From Spirochaetaceae bacterium (GTDB lineage: Bacteria; Spirochaetota; Spirochaetia; DSM-27196; Alkalispirochaetaceae), in NCBI GenBank assembly GCA_007695175.1, contig REEH01000110.1, positions 1 to 64,000 on the forward strand: 64,000 nucleotides of DNA. Direction: 5' to 3'. Shown here piece after piece: positions 2,291-55,887 of this stretch; the first letter of the stretch is position 1; every line of letters starts with the position of its first letter. Below the pieces are notes generated by a model. It searched no databases. It was not told where the DNA came from and saw nothing but the letters and a program-made list of their open reading frames with translations. The translations under genes and the position numbers were made by a program.

Positions 2291-3418
2291 CTACCGGGAC
2301 AGGATGTCGGGCCAGGATATGCCTTCCCCGGCCCGGACCGGCCGGAGAATACGCTTCCCCAGGATTACCTCCCAGTAGCGTGGATGCAGACCGGGGGAGA
2401 GGTTCTTCTCGGAACGGAGGATCGCCGCGTTTTCTCCGGTGATGGTATCGCCGGGGCTTAAATCCGTAACCGCGAGAATGCTCCGGTTGGTCCGGCCATA
2501 GTTTCGCTGTTCGCTCGGTGCAAGGTGCTTCACGCCCGTTCCGAGAACCCTCCGGACGCGTTCGTCCCCGTATCGGCGGGAGAGTTCCTCCCGGATGACA
2601 ACCTGCCTCCGGCGCAGTTCCACCGGATCACCCTCGCCCTGCTTGAGCTGTCCCGCAATGGCGCGAACTTCTCTCACCATCCGGGCGAAATCACCCGGCT
2701 CCAGGGCGATTGCGTCATCAAGGCCGTGATCGCTTTTTCGCAGAGTAATATGCTTCTCGATCATGGTGGCTCCCATGAGAGTTGCCAGGGCGGGGACGAT
2801 AACGGGATCGAGGGAGTGATCCGACACACCGACGGGTACACCGAAGAGGTTGCTCATCGAGGGGATCGCCTTGAGATTATACTCCTCTTCCGGCGCGGGG
2901 TAGGCGGTTATGCAGTGCAGGATCGTTATCTTTCTTGCTCCTCCCAGGCGGACAAGGTCCAGGCTCTCCGCCAGATCCGCTACGGTGGAGACGCCGGAGG
3001 AGAGAATGATCGCCACTCCCATGGAGGCGACGGTGCGGAGGAGGGGCAGGTGATTCAGTTCCGGTGAGGCGATCTTGAACTCCTGGACTCCCAGGCGTCG
3101 CAGGATACGTGCGCTTTCAAGTCCGAAAGGCGTGCAGAGAAACTGAATGCCTGCCTCCTGACAGAGATCCATCAGGCGCACGTAGAACTCCGCGGGCCGT
3201 TCCAGTTCCTGAAAACGTTCGTAGAGTGGTACCGCCCCGAGGGGGATATCCACGTTGCCCGCCCGGGGGTGGAGGATCTCGTCGGCCAGGACAAACTGGA
3301 ACTTCGCCATGTCCGCCCCGGCATCGCGGGCGGCGTGCACGAGATCCCGGGCGTGATCGATATTCCCCTCGTGGGACGTGCCGATTTCCGCCACGATGCG
3401 GAGGGCTGGTGCGCTCAA
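2291..3418 (-). CDS. neuB: N-acetylneuraminate synthase family protein (NeuB/SpsE)
   Basis: Predicted to condense phosphoenolpyruvate with an N-acylated hexosamine to give a nonulosonic (sialic-acid-like) acid. The N-terminal TIM barrel begins with the family signature IVAEIGTSHEGN and has KFQF, IKFLCTPF-like (IQFLCTPFG), the SDHS loop (GVSDHSLDP) and EKHITL. The last 60 residues form a SAF (antifreeze-like) lid, from TNRSILAVTDL on. At 375 residues it is slightly longer than usual. The start is TTG, whose TTGA overlaps the serS stop by four bases, so translation is probably coupled to serS. No other nonulosonate gene is adjacent; SpsF- and PseG-like genes lie 45 kb away. The exact sugar (sialic, legionaminic, pseudaminic) cannot be told from sequence. 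Confidence 0.9.
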   Translation of the reverse strand: MSAPALRIVAEIGTSHEGNIDHARDLVHAARDAGADMAKFQFVLADEILHPRAGNVDIPLGAVPLYERFQELERPAEFYVRLMDLCQEAGIQFLCTPFGLESARILRRLGVQEFKIASPELNHLPLLRTVASMGVAIILSSGVSTVADLAESLDLVRLGGARKITILHCITAYPAPEEEYNLKAIPSMSNLFGVPVGVSDHSLDPVIVPALATLMGATMIEKHITLRKSDHGLDDAIALEPGDFARMVREVRAIAGQLKQGEGDPVELRRRQVVIREELSRRYGDERVRRVLGTGVKHLAPSEQRNYGRTNRSILAVTDLSPGDTITGENAAILRSEKNLSPGLHPRYWEVILGKRILRPVRAGEGISWPDILSR

Positions 3419-4719
3419 GAGGGATCGCCTTCCCGTTTCCGTTCGATGCGGTCAAAGCCGGTGTAGGGTTGCAGGGCGGCGGGTATCCGCACTGAACCAT
3501 CGGCCTCCTGAAAGTTCTCCAGGATCGCTATGATCGCCCGGGAAACGGCCACGGCGGTGCCGTTGAGCAGGTGGGCATACCCACGCTGCTTTTTTCCCTC
3601 CCGGTTGTCCACGTAGCGAACGTTCAGTCGCCGACTCTGAAAATCGGTACAGTTGGAGGTGCTGGTCACCTCGCCCCACTCTCCGGACTCGCCGCGGCCG
3701 GGCATCCACGCTTCCAGATCGTACTTCCGGTAGGCCGGACCGCCCAGGTCACCGGTGCAGATATCGAGGACGCGAAAGGGGATTTCCAGGCGTGAAAAGA
3801 TATCTTTCTCGATTTCCAGCAGCTCCTGGTGCATCGCCTCCGAATCCTCCGGCATGCAGACGATGAACATCTCCACCTTGGTAAACTGGTGGACCCGGTA
3901 GAGACCGCGGGAGAACTGACCCGCCGAGCCCGCTTCCCGTCGGAAACAGTGGGAGATTCCGGCCATGCGGAGAGGCATCTCCTCCGCCGGTATGGTCCGG
4001 CCCGAGTAGTAGCCGCCCAGGGTGATCTCCGCTGTTCCCACGAGACTCGTATCCTCGTTTTCCAGGTTGTAGATATTGGACTCCGGACCGCGGGGGTTGA
4101 AACCGATCCCCGCCACCACCTCGGTCCGGGCAATATCGGGGGTGATCATGGGGGTGTAGCCCCGGTCCCGGAGAATATCGAGAGCAAACCGGGAAAGGGC
4201 CAGTTCAAGGTACACCGCTTCGTTCTTGAGGTAGTAGAACTTCGTACCCGAGACACGGGCGGCAGCCTCAAAATCAACGAGATCCAGCGCCTCCGCCAGG
4301 ACAACGTGGTCCACCGGTGTGAAATCAAAGGAGGGTATGGTCCCCACCACCTGGAGCTCCCGGTTGTCCGCTTCTTCCGCCCCCCGGGGGGAATCGGGGT
4401 GCGTCATGTTGGGAAGTTTTTCCGCCAGCTCCTCCAGCTCCCTCTCCGCGGCGGCAAGGTCCTCCTCGGCGGCGGCGATCCTGAGCTTGAGCTGTTTTCC
4501 TTCCTCGATCAGGCGCGGGCGCTCCTCCGGCGAGACCTTTCCCTTCATCGCCTGGGTGTTGGTGTTCCGGTCCGCCCGCAGCGCTTCCGTTGCGCGGATC
4601 AGCTCGTTCCTGCGATCGTAGGCCCGGACGATCGCGTCCACGTCAATGGTTACGTGACGATCCCGGGCATTCCTTTTTACGGCCTCCGGGTTCTCCCGAA
4701 GATACTTGAGATCCAGCAT
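3415..4719 (-). CDS. serS: Seryl-tRNA synthetase
   Basis: Charges tRNA-Ser with serine. At 434 residues it is full length. Residues 1-110 form the charged two-helix coiled-coil arm that grips the long variable arm of tRNA-Ser. The class II core follows: motif 2 is FRREAGSAGQFSRGLYRVHQ and motif 3 is NGTAVAVSRAIIAILEN. The ATG start follows proC by 48 bases on the same strand, and the stop overlaps the neuB start. The start agrees with the family N-terminus (MLDLKYLRENPE), so it is firm. Confidence 0.97.
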   Translation of the reverse strand: MLDLKYLRENPEAVKRNARDRHVTIDVDAIVRAYDRRNELIRATEALRADRNTNTQAMKGKVSPEERPRLIEEGKQLKLRIAAAEEDLAAAERELEELAEKLPNMTHPDSPRGAEEADNRELQVVGTIPSFDFTPVDHVVLAEALDLVDFEAAARVSGTKFYYLKNEAVYLELALSRFALDILRDRGYTPMITPDIARTEVVAGIGFNPRGPESNIYNLENEDTSLVGTAEITLGGYYSGRTIPAEEMPLRMAGISHCFRREAGSAGQFSRGLYRVHQFTKVEMFIVCMPEDSEAMHQELLEIEKDIFSRLEIPFRVLDICTGDLGGPAYRKYDLEAWMPGRGESGEWGEVTSTSNCTDFQSRRLNVRYVDNREGKKQRGYAHLLNGTAVAVSRAIIAILENFQEADGSVRIPAALQPYTGFDRIERKREGDPS

Positions 4720-46610: not shown

Positions 46611-46669
46611 TTCCCGAAGCTTAGCTTACCCTCATGACACGCTCAAGCCCTGTCGATACATTAGAAGGG

Positions 46670-48244
46670 ATGGACCACTGCATAGTAGCGTTTCCGCGAC
46701 TCTCTCCCTGGCTTCACCTCGCCTTCTCCGACGGACAAAGCCCTCTGGATCACCTGTGGAAACGAATCGCCCTGCTGGGAGATATTCCCGTGACCGTCCT
46801 GGCGCCCGCCGCGACCGACGGGGAACTCACACCACCGAAACCACCGGAAAAGGGGGGGCGGGTAAACGTCCTCGTCCTGGAGAACAGCAGCGGATCGGAA
46901 GCGCTGCAGCGTCTTCACGCGGCGATTCCCGACACGGTGGAGCAACTTCTCTGGTTTGACGGGGACGCCCCGTTTCCCTCCCTTTCGCTTACCTCCTATC
47001 TGCGGGAGCTGCACCTTCGCTCCTGGTGTGACTACACCTTCGGGGACGGCTTCCCCACCGGGTACGCGCCGCAGGTACTCCGGCGGGAGATTCTGCCCGT
47101 CCTGGCGACGCTGGCGGAGAGCCGGGATCTGCCCTGGAACAGAACGATCCTCTTCGACGCTCTCAGCGTCGATATAAACGCTTTTGACCTGGAGACGGAA
47201 GCGGCCTCGGAGGATTACTCGCTCCTCAGGGCAAGCCTGACCGTGGATAACCGTGCCGACTACCTCCTGTGCCGTCGGCTGGTGGAGAGAGGCGCAGCCG
47301 AACCGGATCTCCCCCCGGAAGGTACGGGCGAACACAAACCCGATCCTTTTCGGGAGCGGTTTCGCGACGACCGGGATACCCTCCTGCAGACACTGCTGAA
47401 GGAACCCGCCTTGCGACGTACCCTGCCGCGTTATTACCACGTGCAGGTGACGAACCGGTTCACGCAGAAGCCCGCTTACAGGCCGGATGAAGGGGCGACG
47501 CCCATCGGAGACATGTCGCATGGGACGATGGAACTGGTGCTGGCGGCGATTCACCGGGAAACACCGGAGGCGATAGTTGCCTTCGGGTACCGGGGAGAGC
47601 CCGGGGTGTACCCGGAACTGCCCCGGCTTCTGCGGCTTCTTTCCGTGTACCCCGGCCTTACGTGTTACCTGGAGACGAGCGGTGTGGGCTGGACCGAGGA
47701 GAATCTGCGTGCTCTCCAGGAGTCGGGACAAACGGTGGGTGCTCTCATCGTGGAAGTGGACGCGTACAAGGCGGAAACCTACGCTACCCTTCGCGGGACG
47801 GGCCGTGAGGAGGCGCTGCGCTTTATCGAACGCATGCGCACGGTCCTTCCGGGACGCCTGTACGTGCAGGCGACGCGGATGAAGGAAAACGAGTGGGAGC
47901 TGCAGGATTTCTTCAAGCACTGGAGTTCCCTGGAGGGCGTGAAACCGCTCATTCAGAAGTACAACAACTACGCCGGCCGTCTGCCCGATCGTCGTGTCGC
48001 CGACCTGCAGCCGCTCCGGCGCGTACCCTGTCGACACCTGGAGCGTGAACTCGTCATCCTCCTGGACGGACGGGTGGTTCGCTGTCACCAGGATATCGAT
48101 GAGGCGAGCGTCCGGGGTTCACTCCAGGACCAGTCGCTCATGAAGCTCTGGGAAGCGGGATCAGGTGATTATCTCGCTCACCTGGAGGAGCGGTATCCCG
48201 CCCTATGTGAGAGCTGTGATGAGTACTATACGATCAACGCATGA
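46670..48244 (+). CDS. Spiro-SPASM-type protein: degenerate radical SAM with intact SPASM
   Basis: A 524-residue protein in two parts. Residues 1-215 resemble a nucleotidyltransferase fold (ending DYSLLRASLTVDNRADYLL, like the RVTLDTPEDY strand of SpsF enzymes). The rest looks like a radical SAM barrel plus SPASM domain. Where TNRCxxxCxxC would bind the SAM cluster, it reads TNRFTQKPAYR (261-271): all three cysteines are replaced. The SPASM cysteines survive (VPCRHLE, VVRCHQDIDEA, ALCESCDEYY). So it probably does not cleave SAM. I recall a spirochaete-only family with these traits; confirm by profile search. First gene of a seven-gene overlapping run; a start at 46634 is possible. Confidence 0.8.
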   Translation: MDHCIVAFPRLSPWLHLAFSDGQSPLDHLWKRIALLGDIPVTVLAPAATDGELTPPKPPEKGGRVNVLVLENSSGSEALQRLHAAIPDTVEQLLWFDGDAPFPSLSLTSYLRELHLRSWCDYTFGDGFPTGYAPQVLRREILPVLATLAESRDLPWNRTILFDALSVDINAFDLETEAASEDYSLLRASLTVDNRADYLLCRRLVERGAAEPDLPPEGTGEHKPDPFRERFRDDRDTLLQTLLKEPALRRTLPRYYHVQVTNRFTQKPAYRPDEGATPIGDMSHGTMELVLAAIHRETPEAIVAFGYRGEPGVYPELPRLLRLLSVYPGLTCYLETSGVGWTEENLRALQESGQTVGALIVEVDAYKAETYATLRGTGREEALRFIERMRTVLPGRLYVQATRMKENEWELQDFFKHWSSLEGVKPLIQKYNNYAGRLPDRRVADLQPLRRVPCRHLERELVILLDGRVVRCHQDIDEASVRGSLQDQSLMKLWEAGSGDYLAHLEERYPALCESCDEYYTINA

Positions 48245-49169
48245 GGAGGGCCGGCCCTTCACCCTGGTTGGCCCCCGTGAGGCTGTTCCCGATTCGGCGC
48301 GTCCGGGACTCGTCCTTCTCAACCGGAGTTCCCGCCTTCTGAGAAGAGATTACATGGCGGCAATCGTGGAGGAGAGCTTTTCCGATATCGTTTCGGTGGA
48401 ACTGAGGGAGAACTCCTTTACCGTGGAATCCCTGAGCCGGGAGTTTCCCCGGGTGCGTTTCCTCCTGCTGGATGATTCCGTCTCGATCGGAGCTCGCATC
48501 AACATGGCCATGCGCATCATGAACGCCGAGGCCATCCTGGTCATGTGGTCCACCATGGACCCCCCCGGATCAATAACCCGCGCTCTGGAAACGTTGAAGC
48601 GGACAGGGACTGTCTGCCTCTCCCCGGCCCTGCGAAACGAGCGGGGCGAGGCTCTTCCCGTCGTGCAGGTACCGGCACTTCAGCGGCGGCAATTGCGGGT
48701 GATGACTCTTCCAATCCGGGGCCGTGCGGTGGATACGCTCTTTCCCTTCGATTACGTGGGACTCTATGACCGCCGCCGCTTTGAGGGTCTGGGTATGTTT
48801 GACGAGCAGATAGGGCACCCCTTCTGGCAGAAACTCGACTTCGGCTTTCGCGCGGCACTCTGGGGAGAGCAGATTCGGGTGGAGCCAACTTTTCGCATGA
48901 CCTACCGAAGCATGCCGGAACCGGAGGACCAGACCGCTTCCGAGGGGTACGAGCGCTTTTACGCGCGCAACCTGGCGGTACGTATCAGGGAAAGCGGCGC
49001 GGGAGTGCCGCTCCTCCAGGCGTTGCCCTTCGCGATACGGTCCCGGAAGAGCATTGCCGAGGCGCTGCGGGTCTTCCGGGATGCCTCAGGCTGGGTAGAA
49101 CGGAACCGAGAGCGGTTTCTGCACGATGCACGGACGGTCGTGAAAGAGTGGAGTATCGATAATGCCTGA
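48219..49169 (+). CDS. Putative GT-A-like (glycosyltransferase-type) protein
   Basis: A 316-residue cytosolic protein I can place only loosely. The middle reads FLLLDDSVSIGARINMAMRI followed by ILVMWSTMDPPGS, which resembles the glycosyltransferase-2 region (A-x-N-x-(A/G) helix then DxD), but DxD is replaced by WSTMD. Later, QKLDFGFRAALWGEQIR resembles the (E/D)DxDxxxR acceptor-side helix of GT2 enzymes. Activity is therefore uncertain. The ATG 48219 starts 26 bases inside the SPASM gene and the gene overlaps the next by 8 bases. Context points to glycan assembly. Confidence 0.6.
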   Translation: MSTIRSTHEEGRPFTLVGPREAVPDSARPGLVLLNRSSRLLRRDYMAAIVEESFSDIVSVELRENSFTVESLSREFPRVRFLLLDDSVSIGARINMAMRIMNAEAILVMWSTMDPPGSITRALETLKRTGTVCLSPALRNERGEALPVVQVPALQRRQLRVMTLPIRGRAVDTLFPFDYVGLYDRRRFEGLGMFDEQIGHPFWQKLDFGFRAALWGEQIRVEPTFRMTYRSMPEPEDQTASEGYERFYARNLAVRIRESGAGVPLLQALPFAIRSRKSIAEALRVFRDASGWVERNRERFLHDARTVVKEWSIDNA

Positions 49170-49848
49170 AAAGGGCGTCTTTCTGCAGGTCAGGATAGCT
49201 TCATCGAGGCTGGCAGCCAAAGCGCTTCTGCCCCTGGGAGACAAGCCCGTGATCGTTCATGCCATGGAGGCACTCAGGTCCGTACCGGCGGACCAGTTCT
49301 GGCTCGTCACGGACCGTGAAAGCGTTTCTCGCCTGGAGAAGCCGGCCCGCAGCTGCGGCTTTCGAGTCTTCGCCGGGGACGAACATGACGTACTGAAGCG
49401 ATTCTGTGAGGCCGCGGATCATACCGGGGTGGATATCATCGTACGCGCAACGGGGGATAATCCCCTCGTTTCGGGAGCGGTAGCCGGAGAGGCCCTGGAC
49501 CTCCAGAGTGAGAGCGGAGCGGACTACGCCGGTATTACCGGCACCCCTCTGGGAACGGGAGTGGAGATCCTCCGCAGCGCCGCTCTCAGGAATCTGCAGG
49601 CCCGCACGACCGATCCCTACGAGCGGGAGCATGTAAGCCCGGGATTATATCGCGATCCCGCTCGATACCGGATCGTGACACGCCCCGTCGCGGAAGACCT
49701 GGCATGCCCGGACTTCAGGGTCACCCTGGACACGCCGGAGGACTACGCAAGACTCCAGAGGCTGTACCGGGATCTGTATCGCGGAAGTCCGCCGGACTTG
49801 AGGGAGCTCGTGGCCTATGCCCGACGGCAGCTGCAGCGCATCGCCTGA
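49162..49848 (+). CDS. spsF: SpsF-like cytidylyltransferase
   Basis: A 228-residue NTP-transfer protein related to SpsF, KdsB and NeuA, which activate acidic sugars as CMP conjugates. The nucleotide-binding loop is QVRIASSRLAAKALLPLG (typical family form QARxxSxRLPxKxLxPL), followed by VIVHAMEAL, IIVRATGDNPL (metal and substrate Asp) and FRVTLDTPEDYARLQ. LAAK in place of LPGK is unusual. It overlaps both neighbours. With the PseG-like gene it supports CMP-sugar metabolism. Confidence 0.87.
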   Translation: MPEKGVFLQVRIASSRLAAKALLPLGDKPVIVHAMEALRSVPADQFWLVTDRESVSRLEKPARSCGFRVFAGDEHDVLKRFCEAADHTGVDIIVRATGDNPLVSGAVAGEALDLQSESGADYAGITGTPLGTGVEILRSAALRNLQARTTDPYEREHVSPGLYRDPARYRIVTRPVAEDLACPDFRVTLDTPEDYARLQRLYRDLYRGSPPDLRELVAYARRQLQRIA

Positions 49849-51622
49849 TTCCATCCTCATCGTGGCGGAGCATCGTCGTGGCCACGGCACGGGGCATCTG
49901 CGGCGTTGTGCCGGCCTGGCACGGGATATTCCCTGCGCCCTGGACTGGCTTCTGCCCGCCCACGCCGGTGAGGACTGGTACAGTCGTGAGGAGGTATGGT
50001 CCCTTCTCGGCCCCGGTGCGGTGCCGGAGAGGGTGTGCTGGCGGGATACTCCCGCCGGACCCTATGATCTGATAATAGTTGACCGGAGGGAGATGACCCT
50101 GCGGGAGCTGGAAACGCTTCCCTCCCGGGGAATCGTGGTGGGCATAGACGCGGGGGGCGATCTGCGCACCTACGCGTCCTATCTGGTGGACGCCTTGCCG
50201 ACGCCTCCCGGTTCCGGCCTTCCCAACATCGCGGATACCGCTTTTCTGCCTTTCCCGGACGAGAGTGCGGGGCGGGTACGCCCGGAGTGGCCGGATCGGT
50301 GCGGGAAGGTTCTTGTGGCTTTCGGCGGGGAGGATCAGGACGAGCTCACCCGGGCTGCGGGGCGGGAGCTCAAGGGAGAGACTGAGGGACCTCATCCCCT
50401 TTCCATAGAGCTACTGCTGCACCGGGATGGGATCGATGGCGGGACCGGTCCCGACACCCCGGGAGTCATACGGCCTGAGCCCCGCCTGGCGGACCGGCTC
50501 TCCCGGTATGACCTGGTAGTGACCCACTACGGGCTTCTCGCGTGGGAGGCGCTTTGGGCGCGCGTACCCGTTCTGCTCTGTAATCCCACCGACTATCATC
50601 AGATGCTGGCGGAGGCCGCGGGGTTCGTCGCGTGCCGTTCCCCGGGGGAACTGAGAGGTGCTCTCGGGCGTTTTGCGGAGATTCGGGAATCCTCCAGAAA
50701 CCTGCGGCCCCGGGAACGACGCAATCTGGCGGAGTTCCTGCGGACTCTGCAATCTCCCCCCCGGCTGGAGAGTCCCTCCGGCGGGAGCCGATACCAGCCG
50801 GCGGTGGAGCGCTTCGTGGATTGCACTTATTTTCTGAATCGCCCCGACGGACTGCTCTATCTGCAGAACTATCTTCCCCGCCCGGTGCTGTACGATCAGG
50901 ATTACTTCAACCGGGAGTACCTGAAGCAGTACGGCAGGACGTACCTGGAGGATTTTCCGGTGATCGCCGAACGGGGAAGGGATCGCGTGGCCCGCATCCT
51001 TCGACTCCTGCGGAGAAACGCCTCTCACCGTGCGGACCGACCCCGGCTCCTTGATATCGGGTGTGCCTACGGTCCCTTTCTGCACGCCGCCTCCGGCGCC
51101 GGGTGCACCGTGAAGGGTTTCGAGATCCACGGCGACGCGGTGCGCTACGTCCGGGAGGAACTGCACCTTGAGGCAGTGCAGGGAGATCTTGCGCACCTGG
51201 GGACGTTGCTGTTTCAGGAGCGGTTCGATATCGTTACACTCTGGTACGTGATAGAGCACGTAGTGTTTCTGGACGCGCTGCTGCGGGATATCGCGGCGCT
51301 TCTCAAGCCAGGCGGGATTCTCGCCTTCTCCACGCCCCACGGACGGGGCATATCCGCGCGCCGGTGGAGGCGTACTTTTCTGCGTGACAGTCCGCCGGAC
51401 CATTTTACCCTGTGGGACGCTCCTTCCGCAAAGCGGGTGCTCTCGGCGCAGGGCTTCCGGGTACGGCGCGTGCACTGCACCGGTCATCACCCGGAACGGT
51501 TCTTCGCGGGAGGTGCCGTCCCCTCCTTCCCGGGGGCGGGTTTGCTTCTGCGGGCGATCGGGCTCTGGTCCCGCGTGTTCCGGCGGGGGGACACCTTCGA
51601 GATATATGCGGAGCGCCTGTGA
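49817..51622 (+). CDS. Fusion of PseG-like glycan enzyme and SAM methyltransferase
   Basis: A 601-residue two-domain protein. Residues 1-300 resemble PseG, the UDP-sugar hydrolase of pseudaminic-acid synthesis: RGHGTGHLRRCAGLA holds the catalytic His (about 27), and VTHYGLLAWEALWARVPVLL the GT-B nucleotide-binding helix. From about 330 a linker (YDQDYFNREYLKQYGRTYLED) leads to a class I methyltransferase with motif I RLLDIGCAYGPFLHAA (about 416), WYVIEHVVFLDALL, LLKPGGILAFSTP and a C-terminal beta extension. It likely couples sugar activation with methylation of a surface glycan (inference). It overlaps spsF by 32 bases and the ATP-grasp gene by 4. Confidence 0.8.
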   Translation: MPDGSCSASPDSILIVAEHRRGHGTGHLRRCAGLARDIPCALDWLLPAHAGEDWYSREEVWSLLGPGAVPERVCWRDTPAGPYDLIIVDRREMTLRELETLPSRGIVVGIDAGGDLRTYASYLVDALPTPPGSGLPNIADTAFLPFPDESAGRVRPEWPDRCGKVLVAFGGEDQDELTRAAGRELKGETEGPHPLSIELLLHRDGIDGGTGPDTPGVIRPEPRLADRLSRYDLVVTHYGLLAWEALWARVPVLLCNPTDYHQMLAEAAGFVACRSPGELRGALGRFAEIRESSRNLRPRERRNLAEFLRTLQSPPRLESPSGGSRYQPAVERFVDCTYFLNRPDGLLYLQNYLPRPVLYDQDYFNREYLKQYGRTYLEDFPVIAERGRDRVARILRLLRRNASHRADRPRLLDIGCAYGPFLHAASGAGCTVKGFEIHGDAVRYVREELHLEAVQGDLAHLGTLLFQERFDIVTLWYVIEHVVFLDALLRDIAALLKPGGILAFSTPHGRGISARRWRRTFLRDSPPDHFTLWDAPSAKRVLSAQGFRVRRVHCTGHHPERFFAGGAVPSFPGAGLLLRAIGLWSRVFRRGDTFEIYAERL

Positions 51623-53238
51623 GTACGAGCGGACGGTCTCTTCTGATTCTTGGTGGCGGCGTGATGCAGCTGCCGGCGATTTCCGCCGCGCGCCGCCTGG
51701 GGTGTACGGTGCACGTGGCGGATGCGGATCCGCAATGTCCCGGCGCATCCCGGGCCGATCGTTTCCACCCGGTGGATCTCCAGGATCGGGAGGGCCTTCT
51801 CCTGGCGGCGGAAGGCATAACCGACCTGGCGGGAGTGTTTACGGCAGGCACCGACTTTTCCGCTTCCGTGGCGTACGTGGCGGAGAGGATGGGACTGCCG
51901 GGCATACCCTTCGAGGCGGCCCTGGACGCTACGGACAAGAGCCGGATGCGGGCCGTTCTCCGCGCCGCCGGAGTCGCCGTACCCCGTTTCGTCGCTCTCT
52001 CGGGTCCGGAAGGGCTGGAGCAGTGCCGCCGGGTACTGCGCTGTCCGCTCGTGGTCAAACCGGTGGACAATATGGGAGCCCGGGGCGTGGTGAGTGTATC
52101 GGACTGGTCACAACTGCCGGAAGCGGTGCAGGCGGCACTGCCCCTGTCGCGGACGCGCAAGGCGATCGTGGAGGAGTTTATCCCCGGTAAGGAGTACAGC
52201 CTTGATGCCATCGTCCTTGATGGGCAGGTCCATGTAACGGGTGTGGCGGAGCGCCACATCTTCTTCCCGCCCTGTTTTGTCGAGATGGGTCACACCATAC
52301 CGGCGACGCTGAGGGAAGAGGATCGGTTGCTCCTGGAACGTGGTTTTGCCCAGGCAATCGATGCTCTCGGTATCGTGAGCGGTGCGGCCAAGGGAGATCT
52401 GTTTCTGGACCATTCCCGGGGGGAACCGCTTGTGGTCGTGGGAGAGGTGGCGGCGCGTCTTTCCGGCGGGTACATGTCGGGATGGACGTACCCGCTCGCG
52501 ACGGGTGTGCCCCTGACGGAGATCGGGGTGCGAGTCGCCCTGGGTGAAAAGCCTCCGCCCGCTCTTTTCAGAGCGATCGATGACTTCGTCGTGGCGGAGC
52601 GTGCCCTGATTTCATGCCCCGGAACGGTGACAGGCGTGGAGATTCCCGAGGGAACGGAGGAGAGCGTGGATGCTCTCTTCATACGGTGCAAACCGGGGGA
52701 CCGAGTGCGTTCGCCCCTCAACAACGTGGAGAAGGTGGCCAACGCGATCGCCCGGGGGGGCTCAATGGAGGAGGCGGAGCGGCGTGCTCTGGCCGCACTG
52801 GACCGCATCCTGATACGGCTTGCCCCCGGTGACGCGGAAACGGATCGTTTTCTTTTCTCGGAATCGGGGGCTCATCGCTTTGCCCGGTATCGCGTCAGAA
52901 GCGAGTCCGCGGGTCGATCCCTTTCGGCATTGCCTCCATACCGCGGTGATCCGGCATATATGCGGGCGGCCGCGACGCGGGGAGAAGCGCTTGTTGTGCT
53001 TCCGCCGGAGGGTTGGGGCGGAGGCGCGTTCCTGGAAAAGGCGTATCCGACTCTTCCCGCCCGGGAGGTCCTGGGAGCAATGGTGGAGGACGGCCTGATA
53101 GGGTTCGCGGAAAACGACCGGGCGGCGCCCGCTCTGGGCAGCCTGTTCTGGAACGCTTTCATCGCCGCCGGAAAGCAGGGGGTAGTGTACCTCCTGGATA
53201 CGCTGAGCGCCGGTCTGGAACTGGGAGAGGATCGATGA
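51619..53238 (+). CDS. ATP-grasp ligase with extra C-terminal domain
   Basis: A 539-residue ligase-type protein. Residues 1-100 form a preATP-grasp Rossmann-like domain (SLLILGGGVMQLPAI). The ATP-grasp core, about 105-310, has CPLVVKPVDNMGARGVV, AIVEEFIPGKEYSLDA and GEVAARLSGGYMSGW, the ATP- and metal-binding strands. The C-terminal 140 residues (from ALPPYRGDPAYMRAA) match nothing I recognise. It probably joins a carboxylate to an amine or sugar. GTG start in a GTGA overlap with the previous stop; stop overlaps the amidase ATG. Confidence 0.82.
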   Translation: MSTSGRSLLILGGGVMQLPAISAARRLGCTVHVADADPQCPGASRADRFHPVDLQDREGLLLAAEGITDLAGVFTAGTDFSASVAYVAERMGLPGIPFEAALDATDKSRMRAVLRAAGVAVPRFVALSGPEGLEQCRRVLRCPLVVKPVDNMGARGVVSVSDWSQLPEAVQAALPLSRTRKAIVEEFIPGKEYSLDAIVLDGQVHVTGVAERHIFFPPCFVEMGHTIPATLREEDRLLLERGFAQAIDALGIVSGAAKGDLFLDHSRGEPLVVVGEVAARLSGGYMSGWTYPLATGVPLTEIGVRVALGEKPPPALFRAIDDFVVAERALISCPGTVTGVEIPEGTEESVDALFIRCKPGDRVRSPLNNVEKVANAIARGGSMEEAERRALAALDRILIRLAPGDAETDRFLFSESGAHRFARYRVRSESAGRSLSALPPYRGDPAYMRAAATRGEALVVLPPEGWGGGAFLEKAYPTLPAREVLGAMVEDGLIGFAENDRAAPALGSLFWNAFIAAGKQGVVYLLDTLSAGLELGEDR

Positions 53239-54254
53239 TGAGGAAGGGAGTACTGGCTGTTGTCCTCGTGATGGTACTGAGCGCGACCGCCGCGGCGGAG
53301 TCCACGTATCTCGAACAGATTCTGGTCAGGACCGGAGCGTCCCTTCAATGGGACCCCTACCGGCAGCATGGAACCATCAGCAGAGGAAGCGAGATGGTTT
53401 CATTCGGGATCGGTCGGGAGACGGCGGTGGTTAATCTGGAAGAACTGTACCGGATTGAACCGCCCCGCCGCGCCGAGGGCTCGATCCTCTTCGGACCCCG
53501 TTTTGTATCCCTTGCCCTGCGCCTCTTTCCCCCGCGGGAGACGCTGCGCCGCGTAGGAGCGATTTTCATCGACGCCGGCCACGGGGGACGCGATCCCGGG
53601 GCGATCGGCCGCCACGAAATCGAGGGCGAATTGAAGGAACTCCGGGAGAAGGATCTTGTTCTGGACGTTTCGCTCGCTCTTGCCCGTATGCTGGAAGAGC
53701 GGTTCCCCGACAAAACCATAGTATTGTCCCGGAACGATGATACCTATCTCACCCTGGAGGAGCGGACGGATCTGGCGAACGCGATCCCCATGGCGCCCAA
53801 CGAGTCGGTTCTCTTTGTATCGGTCCATGCGAACGCATCGCTCAACACGCGGGCCCGGGGCTTCGAGGTGTGGGTGCTTCCTCCGGAGTTTCGTCGCCGC
53901 AATCTGGTAAGTGCGGAGAGAACCGGGGTGGATGACCCGGACGTGCTCTCGATACTCAACACCATGCGAGAGGAGGAGCTGACGCTGGAAAGTGTCCTCC
54001 TGGCACGGAATGTACTCTCCGGACTTGACGCGGCGGTGGGCGACCGGTCACCAAACCGCGGTATCCGCGAAGAGAGCTGGTACGTCGTCAGAAACGCCCG
54101 CATGCCCTCGGTGCTCGTGGAGATCGGCTTCGTCACGAATCGGGAAGAGTTCCAGCTCCTGCAACGGAGGGATTACTTGCAGGAAATCACCCGGGGAATC
54201 TATAATGGGGTCGTCAATTTCGTCGACAATTTCGAAGAGGTGGGGCTTGAATAG
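53235..54254 (+). CDS. N-acetylmuramoyl-L-alanine amidase
   Basis: Zinc amidase that cuts the bond between muramic acid and the stem peptide. The 339-residue protein has a signal peptide (VLAVVLVMVLSATAAAES), a copper-amine-oxidase-like N-terminal segment, and an amidase_3 domain from about 110: IFIDAGHGGRDPGA (His ligand), FVSVHANA (His) and VEIGFVTNREE (catalytic Glu). ATG 53235 overlaps the previous stop by four bases and follows GGGAGAGG. Its coupling to the glycan genes suggests cell-wall remodelling near the site where the glycan or the periplasmic flagellum is placed. Confidence 0.93.
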   Translation: MMRKGVLAVVLVMVLSATAAAESTYLEQILVRTGASLQWDPYRQHGTISRGSEMVSFGIGRETAVVNLEELYRIEPPRRAEGSILFGPRFVSLALRLFPPRETLRRVGAIFIDAGHGGRDPGAIGRHEIEGELKELREKDLVLDVSLALARMLEERFPDKTIVLSRNDDTYLTLEERTDLANAIPMAPNESVLFVSVHANASLNTRARGFEVWVLPPEFRRRNLVSAERTGVDDPDVLSILNTMREEELTLESVLLARNVLSGLDAAVGDRSPNRGIREESWYVVRNARMPSVLVEIGFVTNREEFQLLQRRDYLQEITRGIYNGVVNFVDNFEEVGLE

Positions 54255-54780
54255 AAAAGGAATAGGTCAACTGATCAGGAATCGTGCTTTCCCGGGGGTC
54301 GTGGCGGCCGCGTGCTTTACGGCCCTGCTCGCGGGGACGCTGCTCGTTCTCGAAATATGCCCGCCCGAGCGGGAACGCCGCCTCTTCTGGTTTCCCGACA
54401 GCACCCGTTCCGCCATGCAGGCGGAGTTTCGCTTCGTGCCGCGCCGGGATACGCGAACCGGGCAGATACGGCTGTACCTGGAGGAACTCGCCCTGGGACC
54501 GGCCAGGATGGGATCCGTACCTTTTTTTCCTCGGGGTGTACGGATCAGCGGCGTCGTTCTCGACGATCGGCAGAGGCTGTATATAGACTTTTCTTCTTCA
54601 CTTGTAGTAAGAATGGAGGAAGGAGACACATCGTTTGAGGACATTGTAGAGGCTGTCTCCCGGGGTTTGATGCATAATTTCCCTTTCCTGGAAGAAATTG
54701 TCTTTACGATCGGAGGACAGGTCCCAAATGTACCGCGGTTTGGAATCCTGCCGTTGACAAAGGACCGTAGGGCGTTATAA
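54247..54780 (+). CDS. GerMN-domain membrane-anchored protein
   Basis: A 177-residue protein with an N-terminal membrane anchor (VVAAACFTALLAGTLLVLEI) and a GerMN-like domain: AEFRFVPRRDTRTG, LYLEELALGP, VVLDDRQRLYIDFSSSL and VEAVSRGLMHNFPFLEEIVFTIGGQ. GerMN domains are common in envelope proteins that work with amidases. The TTG start lies eight bases inside the amidase gene, and the stop TAA is itself part of the flaA -10 element. Confidence 0.85.
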   Translation: MNRKGIGQLIRNRAFPGVVAAACFTALLAGTLLVLEICPPERERRLFWFPDSTRSAMQAEFRFVPRRDTRTGQIRLYLEELALGPARMGSVPFFPRGVRISGVVLDDRQRLYIDFSSSLVVRMEEGDTSFEDIVEAVSRGLMHNFPFLEEIVFTIGGQVPNVPRFGILPLTKDRRAL

Positions 54781-54781
54781 T
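54754..54781 (+). promoter_or_regulatory. Consensus sigma70-type promoter of flaA
   Basis: TTGACA (54754-54759) and TATAAT (54776-54781) are perfect consensus hexamers 16 bases apart. Both overlap the last codons and stop of the GerMN gene, so flaA has its own strong promoter despite the tight gene packing. The leader is about 40 bases and carries AAAGGAG five bases before the ATG. Confidence 0.92.
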
Positions 54782-54827: not shown

Positions 54828-55826
54828 ATGAGACGTTCCGTCCTATTCGTAATGGTTTTTCTGCTGGTACTCGGATTTGTAGTTGCCGATGAAGCTGTTC
54901 TCATTGATTTTGCGAATCTGACCGCGGATTTTCCGCCGGACAATCCGCGGCACAATGAGCGGACCCTGACCGACTACAGTATTGCTGCGGGTGCCAGCTT
55001 CACGGAGGAAGAGAAGGCGGAGATGAGAATTTCTCTCGCGATTGATTCCTGGGAAATAGAGCTGGCCTCCTCATCCCGGAACGTCGGCACCATCTCCGAC
55101 AGTATGGTACGTTCCGCGCCGGTCCGCGCCGGAGCAAGCCGCTTTGAGGAACAGACGGTGATGGGTGTGCGGGTGCGATTCCCCACGGAGCCCTTCAATT
55201 CCTGGGCCCTCATACGCCCCCCCTTCGAGATACCCGCTTTCTCGGATCTTGATGAAGTTGATGGCGAGGGCAACCTTACCGTCGCTCAGGAGGAGCAGGG
55301 ACGAGGCCGCAAGTTCGACAACTATGGCGTCGTGAAAAACGTGGGAGTTCTGAGGTCCGTATCCATTAACGTGCACGGCCTTAACTTTCCTCACGGCCTC
55401 AGCATCGTCCTGCAGGATGAGAACAACCGGCAGCACGAGATCTTCATGGGCAACCTTCAGTTTGACGGATGGCGGACGCTCGAGTGGCGCAATCCCAATT
55501 ACATCACGGAAGTGCGCAACCGCGAGGTACGCACGATGCCTCTTTATCCCAACCTCTCGCCCATGCGCAAGCTCCTGGGCATCCGTATCTACCGGGACGC
55601 CGCACAGGTCGGGGGCGATTTCGTAACCTACATAAAGGACATTTCGCTCACCTTCGACCGGGCGGTGCTTCAGCTTGAGCGTGACATTGATGACGAGGCG
55701 GTATGGGGTATCCTCCAGGACCGTGAGCAGGCACGGCGTGATGCCGAGCTGCTGCGTCTGGGCAACATCCAGGTTCTTCGGTATCTGGAGCAGCGCAAGA
55801 TGCACGATCCCGATGCGGTTGATTAA
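54828..55826 (+). CDS. flaA: Flagellar filament sheath protein FlaA
   Basis: Sheath protein of the spirochaete periplasmic flagellum, exported by the Sec route. The 332-residue precursor has a signal peptide ending at VVADEAV and the treponemal FlaA features AVLIDFANLTAD, RTLTDYSIAAGASFTEEEKA, VMGVRVRFPTEPFNSWA and PPFEIPAF. It contains repeated beta strands and ends with a charged helical tail. A strong Shine-Dalgarno (AAAGGAG) lies five bases before the start. It is a monocistronic unit closed by a terminator and followed directly by cheA. Confidence 0.94.
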   Translation: MRRSVLFVMVFLLVLGFVVADEAVLIDFANLTADFPPDNPRHNERTLTDYSIAAGASFTEEEKAEMRISLAIDSWEIELASSSRNVGTISDSMVRSAPVRAGASRFEEQTVMGVRVRFPTEPFNSWALIRPPFEIPAFSDLDEVDGEGNLTVAQEEQGRGRKFDNYGVVKNVGVLRSVSINVHGLNFPHGLSIVLQDENNRQHEIFMGNLQFDGWRTLEWRNPNYITEVRNREVRTMPLYPNLSPMRKLLGIRIYRDAAQVGGDFVTYIKDISLTFDRAVLQLERDIDDEAVWGILQDREQARRDAELLRLGNIQVLRYLEQRKMHDPDAVD

Positions 55827-55851: not shown

Positions 55852-55887
55852 AAAACCCTTCGGCGTTACCGTCGGAGGGTTTTTTTG
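55852..55887 (+). terminator. Intrinsic terminator of flaA
   Basis: AAACCCTTCGGCG and CGTCGGAGGGTTT form a near-perfect stem with a TTAC loop and end in seven T residues. The A-run on the 5' side makes it potentially active in both directions. Confidence 0.85.

Follow-up and report, generated by a model that had tools for sequence, protein, structure and literature searches.

In the known systems, flagellin glycans are added in the cytoplasm. The flagellin glycan of Treponema denticola is reportedly described, in a 2017 abstract by Kurniyati, as a mono-acetylated, pseudaminic-configured acid carrying a 2-methoxy-4,5,6-trihydroxyhexanoyl arm on N7, and the masses of the mono-acetyl residue (274.116) and the acyl group (176.068) add up to 450.185, in agreement with that structure. 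The three FlaB proteins of T. denticola bear an essential glycan of 450.2 Da (PMC9481697), and PseI (TDE0960) is required for flagellin biosynthesis in this organism (PMC9862357). To judge from the title of a 1998 paper cited in PMC13144727, Treponema flagellins are glycosylated and sheath proteins are not. An experimental parallel comes from the sfm genes of Shewanella, in which a methyltransferase and an ATP-grasp ligase serve to decorate a mono-acetylated nonulosonic acid of 274 Da on flagellin with a nitrogen-free moiety that bears methyl groups (PMC3765264). The Treponema glycan is unusual and its attachment is essential for motility of T. denticola, and as far as our literature search reached, PseI is the only gene that has been assigned to it, with none assigned to the acyl arm.

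Here we describe a run of seven genes, A to G, in a 64,000-nucleotide stretch of DNA from a Spirochaetaceae bacterium (contig REEH01000110.1); the whole of this stretch is referred to as the window. Our analysis suggests that the run probably holds two interleaved units in one operon, with A, C, D, and E supplying the later, cytoplasmic steps of a nonulosonic-acid pathway dedicated to the periplasmic flagellum, and B, F, and G forming a murein module. The features concerned are as follows.

46670..48244, + strand, start ATG: gene A, spiro-SPASM protein with a cytidylyltransferase-like N-domain, a radical-SAM-like barrel, and a C-terminal SPASM domain
48219..49169, + strand, start ATG: gene B, predicted cytoplasmic GT-A-fold protein of an unnamed family
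49162..49848, + strand, start ATG: gene C, SpsF/CMP-sugar-synthetase-like cytidylyltransferase
49817..51622, + strand, start ATG: gene D, with D1 (residues 1-320) a putative PseG-like UDP-sugar hydrolase and D2 (residues ~340-601) a SAM-dependent methyltransferase
51619..53238, + strand, start GTG: gene E, ATP-grasp carboxylate-amine ligase of the L-amino-acid-ligase type
53235..54254, + strand, start ATG: gene F, exported N-acetylmuramoyl-L-alanine amidase (Amidase_3)
54247..54780, + strand, start TTG: gene G, membrane-anchored GerMN (Germane) protein
54754..54781, + strand: sigma-70 promoter of flaA, TTGACA-N16-TATAAT, a 12/12 match that overlaps the 3' end of gene G
54828..55826, + strand: flaA, flagellar filament outer layer protein (PF04620, 237 bits), a separate transcription unit
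2291..3418, - strand: NeuB/PseI-type nonulosonic acid synthase (PF03102, 226 bits, plus a SAF domain), 43 kb from the run

The original prediction, made from this DNA alone, had given the overlaps between the seven plus-strand genes (46670-54780) as 26, 8, 32, 4, 4, and 8 bases, and all six were reproduced exactly, with an alternative start for gene A possible at 46634. Both F and G have an N-terminal hydrophobic segment, and no export signal was found in A to E. The prediction had also placed the end of the run exactly at the flaA promoter. This promoter is the sole 12/12 sigma-70 match within 9.6 kb, and in relatives a promoter with the same 16-base spacer is a 12/12 match in 11 of 19 loci and an 11/12 match in three more. 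As flaA has its own promoter, the run does end where it was first put, and flaA can be transcribed separately. No promoter was found for the run itself, the best candidate being a 9/12 match at 46634-46662 that lies within chance expectation. Downstream, a strong intrinsic-terminator-like hairpin followed by a T run lies between flaA and cheA (window 55852-55883, + strand), and two more FlaA-family genes stand in tandem elsewhere in the genome (G000 contig 256, 76183-77514).

Almost every family sampled in the class conserves the order A-B-C-D-E-F-G-flaA. Among the loci examined it was found in families f1-f5, f7, f9, f10, f12, f16, and f18-f21, as well as in Treponema vincentii, Brucepastera, and Breznakiella, and in f14 it agrees as far as the contig extends. 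Because both the order and the tight junctions recur across families, the arrangement is more than chance, and the conserved operon that had been predicted is confirmed; co-occurrence in related genomes, the absence of which was to count against it, is what we found. In f15 (L090, 3997-13000) only gene B has been lost, and A, C, D, E, F, G, and flaA are kept. In Treponema, a single fusion protein of ~860-916 residues combines C, D1, and D2 (as in T. putidum and T. vincentii), and in genomes of T. pallidum and T. denticola size, A-B-CD, E, and F-G-flaA are found at three separate places. The other classes of the phylum have a cluster of just A, C, and D1, with no adjacent B, D2, or E, and gene E is located elsewhere in those genomes. 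In three outgroup loci (L076, L077, and L091) the A-C-D1 trio is preceded by genes for exported proteins, at least one of which appears SurA/parvulin-like by eye. A genome that we take to be Brachyspira-like (G072) encodes A and E, with no C, D, or B adjoining A.

To follow these genes across the phylum, we profiled 392 genomes for gene A (E <= 1e-20), gene E (E <= 1e-60), and NeuB (E <= 1e-30), reading the counts by hand from the search tables. Family names here are our own assumption, drawn partly from gene content and general knowledge; thus we take f8 to be Borreliaceae-like and f13 Sphaerochaetaceae-like. Gene A was found in 298 genomes, gene E in 298, NeuB in 301, and flagellin in 342. 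Gene A occurs in 298 of the 342 flagellates and in none of the 50 non-flagellates. Of the 392 genomes, 290 have both A and E, 8 have A only, 8 have E only, and 86 have neither, and 286 of the 298 A-bearing genomes also encode NeuB. There are 44 flagellates without gene A, of which 36 are Borreliaceae-like, all also without NeuB; PseC was likewise absent from both Borreliaceae-like genomes tested. Eight f13 non-flagellates have kept NeuB and lack both A and E. Losses of A, C, D, and E in f8, f13, f11/g17, and part of f14 follow the loss of NeuB or flagellin. The Fisher p values for these associations are tiny, in a calculation that ignores relatedness and in which independent losses number only about three or four.

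Gene B had been expected to follow gene A, but every one of the 12 Borreliaceae-like genomes tested has it, as do 35 of 36 f13 and all four f11/g17 non-flagellates. It has no Pfam or NCBIfam match, and its AlphaFold model (pLDDT 91) gives as best Foldseek matches the GT27 polypeptide GalNAc-transferases (E 1e-12, TM ~0.57), which points to a GT-A fold. D112 and D207 are nearly invariant, and the canonical DxD is absent. Its neighbors F and G match PF01520 (153 bits) and PF10646 (31 bits), respectively. Two Borreliaceae-like loci have the order B-F-G-flaA-cheA, and three f11/g17 loci have B-F-G. Of nine f13 loci, seven hold the pair B-F (with the B genes of L223 and L225 placed from search coordinates), and in the other two, L230 and L231, B stands without F. 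No member of the A/C/D/E set was found in these B-F or B-F-G loci. As B-F(-G) stays where A, C, D, and E go with the loss of flagella or of the nonulosonic pathway, we believe that the operon is a union of two units, one for the flagellin sugar and one for murein. The best explanation for B, F, and G is a murein module, composed of an exported amidase, a membrane-anchored GerMN protein, and a cytoplasmic GT-A protein, that is not specific to the flagellum. Our searches of the literature found nothing useful on the Borrelia homologs of B, F, and G, and no report of an amidase-GerMN-flaA operon.

Gene A matches the spiro-SPASM family TIGR04321 over its full length (388 bits, curated cut-off 250), with a SPASM match (PF13186) at its C-terminus. 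In profile comparisons its barrel matches BtrN (2.5e-20) and its N-domain matches the cytidylyltransferase 6oew (4e-8), a structure also matched by gene C. The window's gene A lacks all three cysteines of the CxxxCxxC 4Fe-4S motif, reading YHVQVTNRFTQKPAYRP at that site, and we therefore rejected it as a working radical-SAM enzyme. Of 134 distinct homologs, 99 keep the motif and 35, including that of the window, have lost it; the losers include all T. denticola-, T. pallidum-, and Brachyspira-size genomes examined. The four C-terminal SPASM cysteines, associated with an auxiliary cluster, are invariant in all 134. A quick tree gave nine state changes for the motif, at least five of them forced by well supported branches, with long branches blurring the exact number. 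Because gene A is kept across the profiled lineages despite these losses, radical chemistry cannot be the essential part of its role, and the best explanation is that gene A is an obligate partner of the A/C/D/E unit in which radical chemistry is dispensable. We found no literature on spiro-SPASM. At one locus of the same genus (L093; G312 contig 1, 173857-183033), spiro-SPASM appears as two partial overlapping matches ~8 kb apart, as if duplicated or interrupted.

The remaining genes of this unit are C, D, and E. Gene C matches PF02348 (CTP_transf_3, 94 bits) and 6oew (8e-48), as well as KdsB structures, and its motifs QxRxxSxR and TxDNP are invariant in the alignment. A role as a plain KdsB for LPS was rejected, as gene C is retained in a T. 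pallidum-size genome and absent with flagella. D1 matches PseG (3hbm, 4e-5) with an invariant GxGHxxR; the putative hydrolase assignment comes from this sequence profile, since the Foldseek matches displayed for gene D (AlphaFold pLDDT 87) concern the methyltransferase half, the top ones being the sugar C-methyltransferases KijD1/TcaB9. D2 has a Methyltransf_23 domain (Pfam) and profile matches to methyltransferases at 1.6e-16, and it resembles C-methyltransferases as much as O-methyltransferases. Relatives carry a zinc-ribbon-like CPxCG...CxxCG ahead of the methyltransferase domain (gene D ~315-350), which is lost in the window's protein and in a same-genus relative. Gene E has ATP-grasp_4 and LAL_C2 domains (Pfam), its closest solved relatives are L-amino acid ligases (3vot, 1.3e-40), and its catalytic-core residues are invariant in 21 aligned rows. 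Other parts of the pathway are encoded elsewhere. Maf-type proteins (PF01973) are present in all 13 genomes tested, with four matches in the window's genome, where matches to PseC (TIGR03588) reach 293 bits, all below the 423.5-bit cut-off. A 1.14-Mb T. pallidum-size genome encodes A, B, the C-D fusion, E, NeuB, a PseC-like aminotransferase, and four Maf-like proteins.

Taken as a pathway, D1 would release an amino sugar from UDP in the PseG step, NeuB would condense the freed amino sugar, and gene C would activate the nonulosonic product with CTP. Gene E would join a sugar-derived carboxylic acid to a free amine through an amide bond, D2 would methylate the acyl arm or the sugar, at oxygen or at carbon, and Maf-type transferases would attach the finished sugar to flagellin, presumably FlaB. 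An amide-linked methylated arm needs an amide-forming ligase and a methyltransferase, so gene E and D2 fit such a product, and the most likely one is a glycan of the T. denticola type, of 450.2 Da. What our analysis shows is the content, order, and co-occurrence of the genes, the separation of the modules, and the classes of fold; the substrates, the sequence of reactions, and flagellin as the acceptor are inferred. The methylated acidic sugar of the original prediction is thus best accounted for as a methylated nonulosonic sugar. Glycoproteomics of FlaA and FlaB had been proposed there, and of these two FlaA is the less likely target, given the 1998 report that sets Treponema flagellins apart from sheath proteins.

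Other readings of these genes have to be weighed against this one. Gene E may instead be a peptide or amino-acid ligase, so that the acyl arm would be an amino acid or a peptide; its solved relatives are of that kind, but throughout the phylum the gene goes with A and NeuB, and the arm in T. denticola is reportedly a hexonic acid, and we regard this as unlikely. That A, C, D, and E make an LPS-like or capsule-like surface glycan, with no part in the flagellum, is very improbable. SpsF- and PseG-type genes do build spore and surface sugars, such as legionaminic acid in the Bacillus subtilis crust (PMC7439481), and gene C resembles KdsB. Such a glycan is hard to reconcile with the confinement of gene A to 298 flagellates and its absence from all 50 non-flagellates, with the eight f13 non-flagellates that keep NeuB without A or E, or with the retention of the genes in the 1.14-Mb genome. 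To our knowledge, T. pallidum has no LPS. Where the prediction had offered the periplasmic flagellum or the outer surface as the destination, the flagellum is therefore likely and the outer surface disfavored.

The prediction had also taken all seven genes to serve one process, in which a glycan made in the cytoplasm is inserted or exposed at wall sites opened by the amidase, on the flagellum or the surface. The conserved order and tight coupling of the seven genes across families speak for this, as does the position of B between A and C, which suggests that co-expression of the two units is itself conserved and counts against a division into two. A single process is nevertheless distinctly improbable, as B-F-G persists in lineages without A, C, D, and E, and the genes are dispersed over three places in the T. 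pallidum- and T. denticola-size genomes. We rejected overlap as proof that the genes share one process, because NeuB and seryl-tRNA synthetase, also in this window, overlap by 4 bases, making overlap weak evidence of shared function. (The NeuB/PseI and seryl-tRNA synthetase genes occupy window 2291-4719 on the - strand, and a serS-neuB neighborhood occurs again in genome G122, L203.) Delivery of the glycan at cell-wall sites is also unnecessary, since A to E lack export signals and the known systems glycosylate flagellin in the cytoplasm.

If the run does combine a flagellin-sugar unit with a murein unit, A, C, D, and E are four candidate genes for the modifying steps, and a parallel set exists in a T. 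pallidum-size genome. Two separable functions can then share one conserved operon in which all genes overlap, which is a caution against inferring a shared process from overlap. The repeated loss of radical-SAM cysteines from an otherwise retained protein is a rare and testable case of conversion from enzyme to partner. As a tentative extension, spiro-SPASM might serve flagellar glycans throughout the phylum, having started out as a radical-SAM enzyme with a fused cytidylyltransferase-like domain and having repeatedly become non-radical yet obligatory. Its conserved job would then be a different one, such as that of a scaffold, a sensor, or a noncatalytic partner to the activating C-D enzyme. 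Together with E and D2, spiro-SPASM might define a spirochaete-specific route to N-acylated, methylated pseudaminic acids, that of T. pallidum included.

Each of the known systems resembles part of this locus. Gene A recalls BtrN and other SPASM/twitch radical-SAM sugar oxidoreductases in its barrel match (2.5e-20) and its retained SPASM cysteines, and differs from them in the absence of CxxxCxxC from 35 of 134 homologs and in the extra cytidylyltransferase-like N-domain. The pseudaminic flagellin glycosylation system of Campylobacter and Helicobacter (pseB-C-H-G-I-F plus Maf) is likewise linked to flagellin, and PseG-like, cytidylyltransferase, NeuB/PseI, PseC-like, and Maf-like proteins are all encoded in the genomes examined. 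In contrast to that system, the spirochaete genes are scattered, with C, D1, and D2 fused in Treponema, and an ATP-grasp ligase, a methyltransferase, and spiro-SPASM are added amid murein genes. The sfmABCDE genes of Shewanella oneidensis (PMC3765264) similarly pair a methyltransferase with an ATP-grasp_4 protein to provide a flagellin nonulosonic acid of 274 Da with a methylated moiety, a likeness at the level of protein type. In contrast, genes of the TPP and reductase types belong to sfm, and PseG, SpsF, and SPASM genes are missing from it. The 450.2-Da FlaB glycan of T. denticola comes from the same class of organism, requires PseI, and has the mass of a mono-acetyl nonulosonic acid with a methoxy-trihydroxyhexanoyl group.
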